DNA of 21,064 bases, taken from positions 1 through 21,064 of IMG/VR virus record IMGVR_UViG_3300025383_000126, one strand, 5' to 3'. The notes below the pieces were generated by a model. That model saw only the letters and a program-made list of their open reading frames with translations. It was not told the origin of the DNA and ran no database searches. Origin of the DNA: a virus. Positions 12,700-21,064 of the stretch are shown piece by piece. The translations under genes and the position numbers were made by a program. The first letter of the stretch is position 1. Each line of letters starts with the position of its first letter.

Positions 12700-14450
12700 C
12701 CACACAAATTTCTACAATACCAGTATCAGTTGACTACACTGCTAGAGACTTTTACTCTATTAAAGATAAGTTAATTGCCAGAATACAGGCGCGTATCCCT
12801 AACTGGACTGCCAGTGACCCTGCTGATTTTGGTGTTGCTTTTGTTGAGGCCATGGCTTACATGGGTGACTTGATCTCTTATTACATCGATAGAAATGCAA
12901 ACGAGAACTCTATCTACACCGCTACTCAACGAAACAGCGTTCTCAATATCGCACAGACTTTTGGTTATACGCCAGCAGGTTATCGTCAATCGTATGTAAA
13001 CTTAACTTTCTCTAACTCTGGAGATACTGACCAGATTATCTATGGAGGAACAGTAGTATCAGGGCAAGTCACCACTGGTGATGTTGTACAGACTCTGTAC
13101 TTTACAACTACCTCAGACATAACAGTTGTTGGAGGAAGTTCTAATACTGTACTTGCTAAAGAAGGTCAACTAGTAACTCTAGTTTCCCCAACAGCAATTC
13201 CTACATACGGAGAACTCATTGGTACTTCGGATGGCTCTCCAAACCAAACTTACATGCTCCTTCATTCTCCAGTAGTGGATGGAACGCTATCTCTGTACAT
13301 TCAAGACGGAGATGTGTATTCTCAATGGAACCAAGTTCAGCACATCACTGACTACGGCCCATCTGATTTGGTTTACACCACATCTTTTGACCAAAACGAC
13401 AACTTGTTTGTCACCTTTGGTGATGGTGTTTCAGGTGCTATCCCTGTTCCTTACTCTCAAATCCGTGTGGTCTATACGGTAGGTGGAGGAGATGTTGGAA
13501 ATATTGGTTCTAACATCGCTACAAACATTAGTTATGTTCCAGGACTTACAGACACTCAAGTAACTGCTCTTAAAGGAACCATCACTGTAACTAACGCAAC
13601 TGCTGCTATCGCGGGATCAAACCCAGAAAGCACAGACCAGATTAGAATTTCTGCTCCTGCGTCTTTGCGTGCGGCTAATCGCGCTGTTACATTAAAAGAC
13701 TTTGCTGACCTTGCACTAAGCGTAAACAATGTAGGAAAAGCACAAGCAACTGCTGCTGTTTGGTCTTCTGTCACTCTGTATATTGCCCCAACTAGAAACG
13801 CAGGAACAACAGATCTACAGCCTGGATTAAACTCAGATGGATCTCCATCTGCTGAATACACTACCTTGGCTAACAACGTTTCTACATATATGGCAGATAA
13901 ACTACTTATTGGAAGTTCTCTTAGTGTTCAACCACCTACATATGTAGATGCCGTTCTTTCATTAACATACTCACTTGACCCTAAGTACAAACAATCAGAT
14001 GTAACAAGTTCAATTTTGTCAACTCTATCAACCAAATATGGATACAACGCAGTATCTTTTAAAGAAACTATTTATCCTCAAGATATTGAGGCAGTAGTCA
14101 ACGGTTTAAATGGAGTTAAAACTGCACGAGTAACTGGTTTATACCGTTATGGTGTTCCTATTACATCTGCTGCTGCTTCTGGAACAGCGATTACTTACAC
14201 AACTAGCGCTCCTCATGGATTGAGTGTTGGATCAACTGTTACAGTTACTGGGTTTAGTCCCAGTGGTTACAATGTAACTTCTGCATCAGTTGCAACAGTT
14301 GCTGATTCCACGCACTTTACTGTTGCTAGTACGCAGTCCAGCGGTACTGCTACAGGAACTGGAGCCTTTACTGGGTACTCAACTCTAATAGGATCAGAAA
14401 ACGAAATTTTTAGATTCCAGGTAAGTAACATCAATATTGGAACGATGTAG
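12696..14450 (+). CDS. Baseplate J-like wedge protein with inserted beta domain
   Basis: A 584-residue baseplate J-like protein starting at GTG. The N-terminal block PVSVDYTARDFYSIKDKLIA, then DPADFGVAFVEAMAYMGDLI and SYYIDRNANENSIYTATQRN (residues 8-78), is classic. Mid-protein strands are followed by VTFGDGVSGAIPVPYSQIRV (about 245-265) and a helix with RISAPASLRAANRAVTLKDF (about 320-340). About residues 490-560 hold an extra domain (AITYTTSAPHG, VGSTVTVTGFSPSGYNV) similar to one in the gpI-like protein, placed just before the normal C-terminal strand (LIGSENEIFRF). J-type proteins form the wedge arms of contractile baseplates. The end overlaps the spike gene by one base. Confidence 0.93.
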   Translation: MTTQISTIPVSVDYTARDFYSIKDKLIARIQARIPNWTASDPADFGVAFVEAMAYMGDLISYYIDRNANENSIYTATQRNSVLNIAQTFGYTPAGYRQSYVNLTFSNSGDTDQIIYGGTVVSGQVTTGDVVQTLYFTTTSDITVVGGSSNTVLAKEGQLVTLVSPTAIPTYGELIGTSDGSPNQTYMLLHSPVVDGTLSLYIQDGDVYSQWNQVQHITDYGPSDLVYTTSFDQNDNLFVTFGDGVSGAIPVPYSQIRVVYTVGGGDVGNIGSNIATNISYVPGLTDTQVTALKGTITVTNATAAIAGSNPESTDQIRISAPASLRAANRAVTLKDFADLALSVNNVGKAQATAAVWSSVTLYIAPTRNAGTTDLQPGLNSDGSPSAEYTTLANNVSTYMADKLLIGSSLSVQPPTYVDAVLSLTYSLDPKYKQSDVTSSILSTLSTKYGYNAVSFKETIYPQDIEAVVNGLNGVKTARVTGLYRYGVPITSAAASGTAITYTTSAPHGLSVGSTVTVTGFSPSGYNVTSASVATVADSTHFTVASTQSSGTATGTGAFTGYSTLIGSENEIFRFQVSNINIGTM

Positions 14451-15607
14451 TGGATGATATTAAAAGACATTACGGAATCTATAGAGGAGTTGTTCAAGAT
14501 AACAACGACCCACAAAATCAACGTAGACTTCGTCTGTCAATCCCACAAACCACAGGGTCAGAGGTAACTGACTGGGCTTGGCCTATTGATCCTTCTAACA
14601 CGTCTTTTGACGTACCTGTTATTGGGCAAGGGGTGTGGGTTGCTTACATTGGTGGAGATCCTGAATATCCTATTTGGCTTGGTAGTTTTGGAACAAACCA
14701 AGGTAAAAATAAAAAGTTGTATTTAAAAGCGTTATCAAATGCTACAAGCCTTAACAATATTAACCATGAGATTATTCTTGTAACAAAAAATGACGGAACT
14801 CAAGAAGTAGATGTAACAGCAACATTAATTGCTCTTGCACAAAAAGAGTATTCTTTACAAACAACTTTGTACTCTTTACAAAATACTGTTCAGGGAATTA
14901 TTGCTGGACATGGAATTCAAGGTGTACAGGGAAGTTCTGGCTCTCAAGGTTCGTCAGGAACACAAGGATTACAAGGATCTTTAGGCTCTGGAACTCAAGG
15001 TGTTCAAGGTGCACAGGGAACTATCGGTACTCAAGGTGCAATGGGATCTGGAACGCAGGGATCTCAAGGACTTCAAGGTTTACAGGGTGCTCTTGGAACT
15101 CAAGGACCTTATGGATTGCAAGGCTATCAGGGATCGCAGGGAGTTCAAGGCACTCAAGGTTTTTATGGAACACAAGGTTCTTTGGGAACACAGGGAAGTC
15201 AAGGGTTACAAGGTGCTGTAGGTGCAACAGGTATTACAGGTACCCAAGGAGTTCAGGGTACAGACGGTACCCAGGGCACACAGGGTACAGATGGCGTTCA
15301 AGGCCAACAAGGTACACAGGGCACTCAAGGATTAACTGGAGCAGGAACACAGGGTTCTCAGGGAACACAAGGAAGTGTTGGAAATACTGGTTTACAGGGA
15401 ACTCTAGGAACTACTGGTTCTCAAGGCACGCAAGGCGTTCAAGGAACTCAGGGAAACTCTATCCAAGGAACTCAAGGGGTGCAGGGAGTTCAAGGATTGC
15501 AAGGCGCTATAGGTGTGGGAACTCAGGGTATACAGGGGTCAAGTGGGACATCCTCTGTAGACGTTGGAAATCTTTTTTCAGGGTTATTCTTAATAATGGG
15601 AGGATAA
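14450..15607 (+). CDS. OB-fold spike protein fused to collagen-like repeats
   Basis: A 385-residue protein from GTG 14450, with the TAG of baseplate J sharing one base. Residues 1-85 resemble the gp5/gpV OB-fold that seats the spike on the hub (YRGVVQDNNDPQNQRRLRLS, DWAWPIDPSN, GQGVWVAYIGGDPEYPIWLG). About 120-150 is a heptad-like helix (LIALAQKEYSLQTTLYSLQN) able to nucleate a trimer. About 155-365 is collagen-like Gly-X-Y with Gln very common at Y (GTQ, GVQ, GLQ). Breaks of the type G-X-G precede GTQ four times, and GNSIQG is a one-residue insertion. The end is hydrophobic (VGNLFSGLFLIMGG). A collagen stalk would replace the usual beta-helix, or act as a trimeric fibre. Confidence 0.82.
   Translation: MDDIKRHYGIYRGVVQDNNDPQNQRRLRLSIPQTTGSEVTDWAWPIDPSNTSFDVPVIGQGVWVAYIGGDPEYPIWLGSFGTNQGKNKKLYLKALSNATSLNNINHEIILVTKNDGTQEVDVTATLIALAQKEYSLQTTLYSLQNTVQGIIAGHGIQGVQGSSGSQGSSGTQGLQGSLGSGTQGVQGAQGTIGTQGAMGSGTQGSQGLQGLQGALGTQGPYGLQGYQGSQGVQGTQGFYGTQGSLGTQGSQGLQGAVGATGITGTQGVQGTDGTQGTQGTDGVQGQQGTQGTQGLTGAGTQGSQGTQGSVGNTGLQGTLGTTGSQGTQGVQGTQGNSIQGTQGVQGVQGLQGAIGVGTQGIQGSSGTSSVDVGNLFSGLFLIMGG
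14913..15545 (+). repeat. Collagen-like Gly-X-Gln coding repeats
   Basis: About 630 bases of degenerate 9-base units (ggN-NNN-caa/cag type) encode Gly-X-Y triplets, mostly GTQ, GVQ, GLQ and GSQ. The nucleotide copies differ by synonymous changes, so the tract is old rather than newly duplicated. The interior resists unique alignment and may vary in length among relatives. Confidence 0.88.
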
Positions 15608-18367: not shown

Positions 18368-18643
18368 ATGGTCAACTTACTAATCTCCGTAATTCTTACA
18401 GGAATGGCAGTTACATACGCCATTGAGTTTTTAGATTTGATTACCTACGTAATTGTAGATAAATCGTTTCTTAATAAACTCCTACCAATGCCGTTAAGTC
18501 TTGGCGCACTTTATCTTCTCAAATATTGGGATCTTAAATTAGTTGTTGCAGTACCTGCAGCATCATTCTTATCTTTGATGATTAACAAGTACCTCAATAA
18601 GCCTGTTGTCTTTGAAGCGCGTCGACAGTTGCCACGCCTATGA
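18368..18643 (+). CDS. Small membrane protein, holin candidate
   Basis: A 91-residue protein with three hydrophobic stretches: about residues 3-18 plus 21-30 (LLISVILTGMAVTYAIEFLD), 39-53 (LPMPLSLGALYLLKYW), and 57-73 (LKLVVAVPAASFLSLMI). The C-terminus is basic (FEARRQLPRL). Length, hydrophobic segments and position at the end of the tail genes fit a holin, but no endolysin gene is next to it, so this is a guess. An out-of-frame ATG at 18360 does not give this product. It ends in an ATGA overlap with the next gene. Confidence 0.75.
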   Translation: MVNLLISVILTGMAVTYAIEFLDLITYVIVDKSFLNKLLPMPLSLGALYLLKYWDLKLVVAVPAASFLSLMINKYLNKPVVFEARRQLPRL

Positions 18644-19224
18644 GAAGAATATCGGTAGTATCTTTTCAAAACATCGATGTGACAGAAGGACTTGAAGAAC
18701 TCGTCCTTATGTATGACGATCCTTTTATTCTTTTTCCAATCACTTCTAACAAGTTATTTGTTGAAAGCGTATGGAATGTCATTAAAAAACACGGCCTAGA
18801 GTTTCACGCCTATTTCTCAGAGAACAGCGACTTTACAAATGTTGTCCTTAGCGGATCAAAGAACTTTACTAAGGTAAACAACCCCATCAAAGAGGTTGTA
18901 AAGATGATCAACATACCTGATGACGTTCTTGCCATCGTATGGGATGACAGTCCAGAGTCTCACACAGTCCTACACTCCGTAGAAGACTATGGGGCAGAGA
19001 CATGGAACATCATGGACGGATTAGATGTGATTGAGATTGACCATGGCGATCCAGACCTTGATGAGGACGAAATCCTGGAGGCGATCGAAGACACCTTCAT
19101 GAGCCTTGTGGACTTGTTGGCTGGCTACATCACCACCAAGGTGGTAACCCTGCTCACCGAAGAAGTCAACGCTCACCTGGACAACCTAGAAGGTCGCAAC
19201 GACATCGACCCGTTTGAGGAGTAG
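18640..19224 (+). CDS. Hypothetical acidic alpha/beta protein
   Basis: A 194-residue protein not recognised with confidence. The first 125 residues look like a compact alpha/beta fold, with hydrophobic strands FILFPITS, EFHAYFS and VLAIVWDD alternating with helices (SNKLFVESVWNVIKKHG). A conserved-looking block SPESHTVLHSVEDYGAETWN follows. The last 65 residues are very acidic helical sequence (DPDLDEDEILEAIEDTF, VTLLTEEVNAHLDNLEGR). No signal, membrane segment or metal pair is seen. It is joined to the membrane gene by an ATGA overlap and precedes the replication module, so it may be regulatory, but nothing shows that. Confidence 0.82.
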   Translation: MRRISVVSFQNIDVTEGLEELVLMYDDPFILFPITSNKLFVESVWNVIKKHGLEFHAYFSENSDFTNVVLSGSKNFTKVNNPIKEVVKMINIPDDVLAIVWDDSPESHTVLHSVEDYGAETWNIMDGLDVIEIDHGDPDLDEDEILEAIEDTFMSLVDLLAGYITTKVVTLLTEEVNAHLDNLEGRNDIDPFEE

Positions 19225-19227
19225 TCT

Positions 19228-19253
19228 GCGCCCGTGCAAATCCCTGAGGGCGC
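19228..19253 (+). promoter_or_regulatory. GC-only hairpin around initiator start codon
   Basis: gcgccc (19228-19233) and gggcgc (19248-19253) form a perfect 6-bp stem, with the GTG start codon (19234-19236) in the 14-base loop. The likely GAGGAG ribosome binding site (19216-19221) lies just upstream in the end of the previous gene. The structure could modulate initiation. It lacks a T-run, so it is unlikely to be a terminator. Confidence 0.5.
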
Positions 19254-20211
19254 TTATTCCGCTGACATCACCGATTACCAGTTCCGACTCCTGGCCTTTA
19301 TGTGCCTGAATTCGGGCGCTGACGGCCGTTTACAGGCCTCTGTAGCCGAGTTGGGTAGTCAGACTGGCAAATCTAGTGACAGAACCGTTAGAGATGCCAT
19401 TAAAGCCCTACAAGCCAAGGGGTTCTTGACCGTGGTCAACACCAAAAGAGCCAACGGATACAAGGGCAAGAACGTCTACCAACTGACGGTAGATTACCCA
19501 TCTGAACTGACGGTAGATTACCCATCCTCACCTGATAAGGTGATCAATAGTTCAGATAGTAATATTACAGATATACAACTAGTACCTAGTAGTAATACTA
19601 CAAATAGTAATAAATTAAAATATTCTGAATCAAAGATTCGAAGGGAAATCCTTATCCCAATGAAAGGCTACGACGATGGCGAAGATCTTGCAGGCTTTGG
19701 CCTTGTTGAGGACAGGGATGCGCCACAGCCTAAGATCCGAAAGAACGATCCAAGAACCCGTGGAAAGCGACCAGAGCATGAGTGGACTGCCATGGACGTC
19801 GCTGCTGAGTTCTCTTACAGAGTTGGCAAGAAGTTCCCACTCCTACCAGGAACAGTCAACGTCAAGCAACTCTCAGGAGCCCTTGCCAAGTTCAGAACCC
19901 AATACCAAACCACACCACTCCTAGAGTTAGAACTTCTCCGCCTCTTCATGGCGGATGAACGCAACTTTACAGACGTTGGAGATGAGGCTCCGTATTTGTA
20001 CAAGCGCTTCCTTGCATCGTTTCGAACCAAGATGAACCAAGCACGCCAGAACCTTGGTCTTCCACGGATCGCCAGCAAAGAGTTTGACGAAACTCCAAAA
20101 GCATCTGCTAGTGTCCTCACTGCCAGCGATGGTCGCACATTCCAAAACACCATGTCAGGTCGTGCACAGATGCAACGCCACGAATTGCGGCTCAAAGGAG
20201 CAAACAAATGA
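19234..20211 (+). CDS. Replication initiator, winged-helix type
   Basis: A 325-residue protein. Residues about 10-80 form a winged-helix unit: ITDYQFRLLAFMCLNSG, then ASVAELGSQTGKSSDRTVRD, then AIKALQAKGFLTVVNTKRAN with the wing reaching YQLTV. Then come a duplicated LTVDYPSE/LTVDYPSS (84-99), a Ser/Asn/Thr linker (about 100-130), and a basic hinge (KIRKNDPRTRGKRPE). The C-terminal helical domain (about 178-300) contains RLFMADERNFTDVGDEAPYL. This arrangement, followed by a DnaC-like loader, is that of phage O-type initiators, which bind origin repeats and recruit the helicase loader. The GTG start uses an upstream GAGGAG. The gene itself contains origin-like repeats and an AT-rich tract. Confidence 0.83.
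   Translation: MQIPEGAYSADITDYQFRLLAFMCLNSGADGRLQASVAELGSQTGKSSDRTVRDAIKALQAKGFLTVVNTKRANGYKGKNVYQLTVDYPSELTVDYPSSPDKVINSSDSNITDIQLVPSSNTTNSNKLKYSESKIRREILIPMKGYDDGEDLAGFGLVEDRDAPQPKIRKNDPRTRGKRPEHEWTAMDVAAEFSYRVGKKFPLLPGTVNVKQLSGALAKFRTQYQTTPLLELELLRLFMADERNFTDVGDEAPYLYKRFLASFRTKMNQARQNLGLPRIASKEFDETPKASASVLTASDGRTFQNTMSGRAQMQRHELRLKGANK
19481..19526 (+). repeat. 22-bp direct repeats (iteron candidates)
   Basis: The 22 bases at 19481-19502, beginning aactgacggtagattaccca, recur exactly at 19505-19526 with a 24-bp period. They lie inside the initiator gene and keep its frame (LTVDYPS twice). Confidence 0.93.
19528..19630 (+). other. Candidate replication origin: AT-rich tract with inverted repeats
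   Basis: Next to the iteron-like repeats lie tcacct-gata-aggtga (19528-19543), gtagt-aat-actac (19589-19601), and a very AT-rich stretch (about 19545-19630) within a sequence of Ser/Asn codons. Direct repeats beside an AT-rich, easily melted tract inside the initiator gene are the layout of lambdoid origins. The call rests on layout only. Confidence 0.55.
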
Positions 20212-20300
20212 GAGAAGTATTTGGATACGTATTAGTAGTTTTAATTACATCAGCAGCAACACACTTAATAACACGAGGAGCAACATGGCTAAGAAAGTAA
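20208..20300 (+). CDS. 30-aa membrane microprotein
   Basis: A small ORF (MREVFGYVLVVLITSAATHL, then ITRGATWLRK) with one hydrophobic segment at about residues 5-21 and basic ends, like a single-pass membrane peptide. It starts by ATGA overlap with the initiator stop; AAAGGAG lies about nine bases upstream. Its 3' end overlaps the next ATG (20285) by 16 bases, and the next gene's GAGGAGC site is inside it, so it may serve to couple translation. Function is unknown. Confidence 0.55.
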   Translation: MREVFGYVLVVLITSAATHLITRGATWLRK

Positions 20301-20563
20301 CTAAGAAGTTCACCGCAGATCTCACACTCAACACAGAACAAGGTGGAGGATGGATGGCATTTGTCTCTGTGGTAGGAGAAGATGGAACTGCTGAAATCAT
20401 TTTGTCAACTGCATGGAAAAACGCATCAGCAGGTAAGCGTTGGATTAAATCAAAGGTTCTTGAACTAACTCCTCGTAAAAGCGTGAAGATGATTGCTGGA
20501 GAGAAAGTTGACGCTGCAGGCAAAGTAGTTTCATTTGCTGGCGAACTAACCTTTAAGGCGTAA
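20285..20563 (+). CDS. Small hypothetical protein in replication module
   Basis: A 92-residue protein (MAKKVTKKFTADLTLNTEQG...) with a basic start. Alternating hydrophobic strands follow (GGWMAFVSVVGEDGTAEIIL), then a helix (WKNASAGKRWIKSKVLEL) and a strand-rich end (KVDAAGKVVSFAGELTFKA). This suggests a small alpha/beta fold. ACGAGGAGC gives a good ribosome binding site before the ATG at 20285, favoured over upstream in-frame starts inside the initiator gene. It lies between initiator and helicase loader, so a replication or single-stranded-DNA role is possible but not visible in the sequence. The stop abuts the next ATG. Confidence 0.83.
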   Translation: MAKKVTKKFTADLTLNTEQGGGWMAFVSVVGEDGTAEIILSTAWKNASAGKRWIKSKVLELTPRKSVKMIAGEKVDAAGKVVSFAGELTFKA

Positions 20564-21064
20564 ATGTACGACATCACTCAACTCTCTTCTTTGAAGAGGC
20601 ACTGGTTACTTCGCACCTCTAATATCCCAACACGATTTCTAGGCTTAGAACCTAGCGACATCATTGAAAAGGCTGGATATTTTCCAGCAGAGATCAGTGA
20701 TTGGATTGACATGGTTATTGAAGGCCAAGTCATTAAGAACATTGGGAACTTAGGAACTACTGGCGTTGGTCTTCTCCTTGACGGAGGGCCTGGTATCGGT
20801 AAGACAACTCACGCAGTTGTTGCAGCCATGGAAGTTATCCGCAGACTTCCTGATGATGATGCGGCTTTGTGCCATGCCTTTGGAATTAAGAACTCTGATT
20901 TTGGTATGAGTTTTCGCCCTATCCATTACTTAACTTACCCAGAGTTTCTCTCACTAAAGAAGTCAACCTTTGACCAGGAAACTGACCACAGTGTTACTGA
21001 CCGAATCGATGGCTTACATGGAAGATCTCGGTTTGACTGGTTAAATGTGCGAATTCTTATCATC
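20564..21064 (+). CDS. DnaC-like helicase loader (AAA+ ATPase), 3' end outside window
   Basis: The first 167 codons of a DnaC/DnaA-type ATPase. The N-terminal block has RHWLLRTSNIPTRFLGLEPS, including the 'IP-RF-G' box typical of DnaC-like loaders. A hydrophobic strand precedes the Walker A loop GGPGIGKTT (G74, with the nucleotide-binding lysine at K80). The text stops at VRILII, where the Walker B aspartates should follow. Such proteins load the replicative helicase at an origin opened by the initiator, which lies two genes upstream. The ATG at 20564 begins directly after the previous TAA. The gene runs off the right edge, so its full length and sensor motifs cannot be judged. Confidence 0.9.
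   Translation, partial: MYDITQLSSLKRHWLLRTSNIPTRFLGLEPSDIIEKAGYFPAEISDWIDMVIEGQVIKNIGNLGTTGVGLLLDGGPGIGKTTHAVVAAMEVIRRLPDDDAALCHAFGIKNSDFGMSFRPIHYLTYPEFLSLKKSTFDQETDHSVTDRIDGLHGRSRFDWLNVRILII

Follow-up and report, generated by a model that had tools for sequence, protein, structure and literature searches.

Background

Phage lambda takes DnaB, primase and polymerase from its host. Its origin lies within gene O, where four 18/19-bp iterons are joined to an AT tract of ~40 bp (PMC5043065, PMC3349717). In the lambda genome (NC_001416) the iterons end at 39118 and are followed by the AT tract, directly to the right of which positions 39158-39181 form a 10-bp stem (ATTCGTCAGA gaat TCTGGCGAAT) around a GAAT loop, one of its pairs being G-T. 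An inverted repeat at this place features in the older literature. Across the lambdoid loci that we compared, GC-rich hairpins stand to the right of the tract in P22 and HK544; two of the loci lack one, with none seen in Bas106 or KO-TP1, and in one locus it is imperfect. Those passages of the lambdoid-origin literature that we draw on here name iterons and AT tract only, with no right-hand hairpin (PMC7466680, PMC6022878). The same passages report that synonymous iteron mutations abolish replication from lambdoid and Stx-phage origins (PMC7466680), that Stx-phage origins hold six iterons (PMC7466680), and that in-frame deletions in the lambdoid AT tract inactivate the origin but not the ability of O to complement in trans (PMC6022878). 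In bacterial oriC, unwinding involves the DnaA-trio motif, 3'-[G/A]AT-5', i.e., 5'-TA[G/A]-3' (PMC10797057).

Here we analyze a 21,064-base IMG/VR virus fragment, IMGVR_UViG_3300025383_000126 (the window), and conclude that positions 19481-19639 very probably constitute a phage replication origin embedded in the linker codons of the initiator gene, on the plan of lambda ori and gene O. Like phage lambda, this virus, whose hosts are lake and sediment bacteria, appears to keep the start site for DNA copying within the coding sequence of its own start protein. A sequence-only reading of the window had proposed such a lambda-like origin; comparison of 105 relatives, together with O-like profile and structure evidence, supports that proposal as far as sequence can tell. 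The case is carried by the layout of the element, synonymous-site constraint, covariation of iterons with the recognition helix, covariation of the hairpin, and the order of replisome genes in one relative. Origins of uncultured large phages are seldom located, and here one can be placed using only sequence.

A predicted lambda-O-like initiator and its gene neighborhood

The initiator gene (19234-20211, + strand, GTG start) encodes 325 aa, divided into a winged-helix N-domain (~aa 1-87), a disordered linker (88-158) and a helical C-domain (~173-325). Profile searches matched it to PHROG 270 (E 8e-15) and to two families labeled "O-like", PHROG 391 (1.5e-9) and PHROG 678 (8.3e-9), with a Pfam HTH_36 match (3e-5) falling just short of the Pfam cut-off. 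In keeping with its long linker, the AlphaFold2 model had moderate overall confidence (pLDDT 69.9, pTM 0.36), and pLDDT dropped below 50 only at residues 88-158 and 287-291. Among the matches from a fold search of a viral library are proteins carrying the annotation lambda O N-domain, and the corresponding PDB search gave only weak winged-helix matches, the DnaD N-domain among them. By sequence, the initiator had no match among solved structures, no BLAST-level similarity to lambda O and no close match in an annotated phage collection. Taken together, the profile and structure evidence points to a lambda-O-like initiator. The DNA element at 19481-19639 encodes aa 83-136, almost exactly over the disordered linker of the model.

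The DnaC-like loader that the earlier reading placed next to the initiator is indeed present, with one small gene between: a DnaC-like AAA+ helicase loader gene begins at 20564 on the + strand and is cut by the window end at 21064 (PHROG 50, E 0.002), and the full-length relative matches the same family at E 6e-26. The intervening gene (20285-20563, 92 aa) has no Pfam or PHROGs match. Downstream of the initiator, one relative, G003, encodes among other proteins a DnaC-like loader, DnaB, a DnaG-type primase, an SNF2-type helicase, DNA polymerase A and RecA. The ends of G003 (99,750 bp) and of a further relative, G004 (97,380 bp), overlap by ~127 bases, indicating that these are probably complete circular assemblies near 100 kb. 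Elsewhere in the window, profile matches identify contractile-tail genes (sheath, baseplate), and the best-covering matches of the sheath are Streptomyces phages such as BRock. Also in the tail region, a protein (14450-15607) contains an extended stretch of collagen-like GxQG repeats, and tandem 15-24 bp repeats at 313-582 encode an acidic low-complexity Asp/Ala-rich protein.

Synonymous-site constraint across the linker

Two scans of viral contigs yielded 105 distinct complete initiator genes, 31 of them with less than 85% nucleotide identity to one another; no host genome containing a relative was found. Linker length differs between relatives, and the order of elements is common to them: repeats with (half-)palindromic cores, a CCTCAC-type box with a dyad, an AT tract ending in (A/C)AATTAAAA, and a hairpin. 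With more than 100 natural variants of the element, DNA constraint can be told apart from protein constraint.

We calculated synonymous divergence as the chance of differing codons at a shared amino acid, relative to gene-wide codon usage. Between aa 95 and 130 it averaged 0.134 of expectation, compared with 0.698 elsewhere (Mann-Whitney p ~3e-15); the next-lowest non-overlapping stretch of equal length stood at 0.464, and the edge of the constraint is abrupt after aa 133. The proposal that DNA function drives this linker had come with a named observation that would speak against it, synonymous sites free to vary among relatives, and these sites are not free. Within the tract, codon usage is extremely one-sided (Asn AAT 79/80, Leu TTA 66/75, Gln CAA 36/36, Ser AGY 108/138), and AGC is frequent where TCA or TCT would be AT-richer, which argues that selection is not for AT content alone. 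Across the 105 related genes, evolution keeps DNA signals in the linker rather than the encoded protein.

Iterons matched to the recognition helix

Two exact 22-bp repeats with a period of 24 bp, as first noticed from the window alone, occupy 19481-19502 (AACTGACGGTAGATTACCCATC) and 19505-19526 on the + strand; codon-shuffled versions of the initiator gene gave a longest such repeat of 10 bp in 60 trials. The core of each copy is itself palindromic (GGTA-gat-TACC, at 19488-19498 and 19512-19522), and these are its only two exact occurrences in the window. Most relatives carry repeats upstream of the AT tract with the same or a replaced half-site; spacing differs between relatives, and the left half is degenerate in several. 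Copy number also varies (for instance, two versus three in L003 versus L007), and initiator length changes with it. The repeats had been read as dictating the linker peptide, an interpretation borne out by relatives in which different iterons encode quite different peptides (LTVDYPS, VKNYRTS, ENYRTSH, DANVRTS).

Of the 105 genes, 65 have TTACC as the half-site closest to the tract, 34 have TGTCC and 6 have TGACC; under a simple pattern several TGnCC relatives show one clear half-site match only. This split is mirrored in the predicted recognition helix (aa 49-62 in the AlphaFold2 model, codons at 19378-19419 on the + strand): all 40 TGnCC genes have Arg at residue 54, whereas none of the 65 TTACC genes does, the residue there being Ser, Thr, Asp, Asn or Ala. 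Positions 46, 48 and 49 likewise separate most of the TTACC from the TGnCC group. On a tree built from the C-domain only, residue 54 and iteron class each require 9 changes, and the independent iteron-class contrasts on strongly supported branches number only 2, both agreeing, so that independence of the covariation is limited and module exchange is possible. N-domain and iterons may have been exchanged jointly by recombination; with or without such exchange, protein and iteron site stay matched. The relatives thereby offer a ready candidate specificity code, residue 54 versus TTACC/TGnCC.

AT tract, dyads and a phased triplet array

To the right of the iterons lies the long AT-rich tract of the earlier reading, a presumed DNA-unwinding element at 19546-19626 with 79% AT over 81 bp, a value equaled by only 14 of 20,983 81-base windows. 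Both inverted repeats named in that reading were found. The first, TCACCT-gata-AGGTGA (19528-19543), has CCTCACATGACTATAAGTCA at its place in most relatives; it is broken in several, and in L114 both sides have changed (TGACT/AGTCA to TGGCT/AGCCA). The second takes the form GTAGTA-a-TACTAC (19589-19601) inside the tract, and is present in the window and missing from most other relatives. A further dyad, ACTAG-tac-CTAGT (19578-19590), reads ATTAG-tac-CTAAT in most relatives, a change on both sides; L011 is without it, and it is single copy in 3 of 4 ~100-kb relatives. Synonymous divergence falls to ~0 over the near-invariant tract core TAGTAATAAATTAAAA (19605-19620), and (A/C)AATTAAAA is present in 105/105 genes.

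Phased 5'-TAG/TAA triplets are abundant in the tract, at 19546-19620 of the window and in its counterparts in relatives. Pooled tracts of the 31 representatives contain 168 TAG, compared with 35.9 +/- 5.3 expected from synonymous recoding with rest-of-gene codon usage and 123 +/- 6.8 expected with the tract's own codon usage, and a single phase holds about two-thirds of TAG and four-fifths of TAA. The array is broken up in most relatives. From 18463 to 20834 no DnaA box (TTATNCACA) was found even when one mismatch was allowed, so the likeness of the array to DnaA-trios stays a resemblance.

A covarying hairpin at the right edge

The sequence-only reading had drawn the element from 19481 to 19630; its start holds, and its end moves outward, the element reaching a hairpin (GAATC-aaa-GATTC, 19627-19639) directly right of the AT tract. 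With 5 bp, the stem in the window ranks among the weaker and taken alone is not significant; the evidence for the hairpin is comparative. A post-tract hairpin is present in 40/40 distinct sequences, with a stem of 4-10 bp beginning 4-10 bases past the tract, and these sequences contain 18 distinct stems, from GAATC/GATTC through GTGGCGCA/TGCGCCAC, with differing peptides. Since stem and loop lengths vary, plain MAFFT misplaces the right arms, and we therefore used best-stem, gene-scan and arm-swapping controls in place of column-based covariation. In a position-by-position scan, mean stem length peaks gene-wide at the post-tract hairpin (6.87 bp vs. 3.67 +/- 0.75), and exchanging arms among the 18 stems shortens the mean pairing from 7.06 bp to 4.59, with none of 20,000 shuffles exceeding 5.83. 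Representative single strands fold into the predicted hairpin.

By these comparisons, the hairpin is the most strongly covarying part of the candidate element. Preservation of symmetry despite sequence change favors a recognized fold over a protein-binding sequence, suggesting that the hairpin is selected for its fold and probably acts in extruded or single-stranded form. The relatives supply direct evidence for selection of a hairpin beside the AT tract, and with it a route to testing whether lambda's right-hand hairpin matters.

Alternative explanations and proposed mechanism

The iterons could instead be the initiator's operator or handcuffing sites, governing its own transcription or copy number, with replication starting elsewhere. 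Covariation of iterons and helix shows protein-site matching rather than purpose, and GC skew is uninformative, giving a start at this locus no support, as four relatives of ~97-100 kb show no switch at the initiator locus, their slopes being ruled by other trends. We nonetheless consider this explanation improbable: it leaves the constrained AT tract and covarying hairpin unexplained, its sites lie ~250 bp into the gene with no promoter-like match near, and the GGTANNNTACC palindrome is confined to the linker in G001, a relative of 100 kb. A scan for promoters and terminators returned nothing exceeding shuffles.

Still less probable is constraint acting on mRNA, with hairpin and AT tract forming an RNA element that controls, for example, an internal start at the invariant Met143. 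The hairpin would form in mRNA too, and Met143 is ATG in 31/31 representatives, yet Shine-Dalgarno-like 4-mers precede it in only 14 of these 31 and not in the window, synonymous sites just upstream (aa 134, 137, 138) vary freely, there is no Rfam match, and an RNA hairpin leaves iterons and phased TAG/TAA array unexplained. An internal start at Met143 was itself rejected, the Shine-Dalgarno-like sequence not being conserved. As for repeats and AT-rich linker being neutral products of slippage and low-complexity coding, devoid of DNA function, we give this almost no credence: the linker is predicted to be disordered and varies in length among relatives, but near-zero synonymous divergence within that disordered linker refutes neutrality, and the hairpin stems change on both sides.

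Returning to an origin within the initiator gene, we infer initiator binding, melting, replication start and a partner for the hairpin from these patterns. The winged-helix N-domain would bind the iterons, probably as a dimer on palindromic copies, and the assembled complex would open the adjoining AT tract. Next, the C-domain of the initiator, together with the DnaC-like loader, would put a DnaB-type helicase on the opened strands, to be followed by phage-encoded primase and DNA polymerase A, and the right-edge hairpin probably stabilizes the opening, bounds the bubble, or receives loader or primase. A bolder and rather doubtful extension is that an O-type winged-helix initiator reads the element in two parts, the iterons in double-stranded form and the phased TAG/TAA array in single-stranded form, in DnaA-trio fashion without DnaA, bounded by the covarying hairpin as landing site for the phage-encoded loader or primase. 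Were such two-part reading true, the right-hand hairpin would become a general third element of lambda-type origins.

Comparison with known systems

The closest likeness is to lambda: in both, an origin-like element lies where the initiator gene encodes its linker, the iterons are palindromic and have an AT tract to their right, a helicase-loader gene follows downstream, and iterons, AT tract and hairpin (39158-39181 in lambda) come in the same order. Unlike lambda, the window has two iterons of unrelated sequence rather than four, together with extra dyads and a phased TAG/TAA array, and its loader is a DnaC-like AAA+ protein, not lambda P or another P-type loader; some O-like phages, such as Bas106, likewise carry DnaC-like loaders. 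A relative further differs from lambda in encoding its own DnaB, primase, PolA and RecA; a lambda-type origin would here head a self-encoded replisome, not a host-borrowed one. The phage also differs in its contractile tail and a genome size of close to 100 kb.

As in Stx-phage origins (PMC7466680), iteron number varies and alters initiator length, but iterons there are lambda-type throughout, whereas here half-site and recognition helix switch together. Repeated 5'-TA[G/A]-3' triplets in the unwinding tract recall DnaA-trios, although no DnaA box lies by the tract, the array is mostly interrupted in relatives, and the initiator is a winged-helix protein, not DnaA. Iteron plasmid origins (RK2, F, R6K; PMC5043065, PMC10797057) similarly have repeats adjoining an AT-rich unwinding region and a winged-helix initiator; the present element differs from them in being embedded in the initiator gene, in its O-like family, and in window iterons that are palindromic, not monomer-type. 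The element is thus best described as a putative origin of the lambda type, embedded in the initiator gene of a new phage group and supplemented by a trio-like array, extra dyads and a strongly covarying hairpin.
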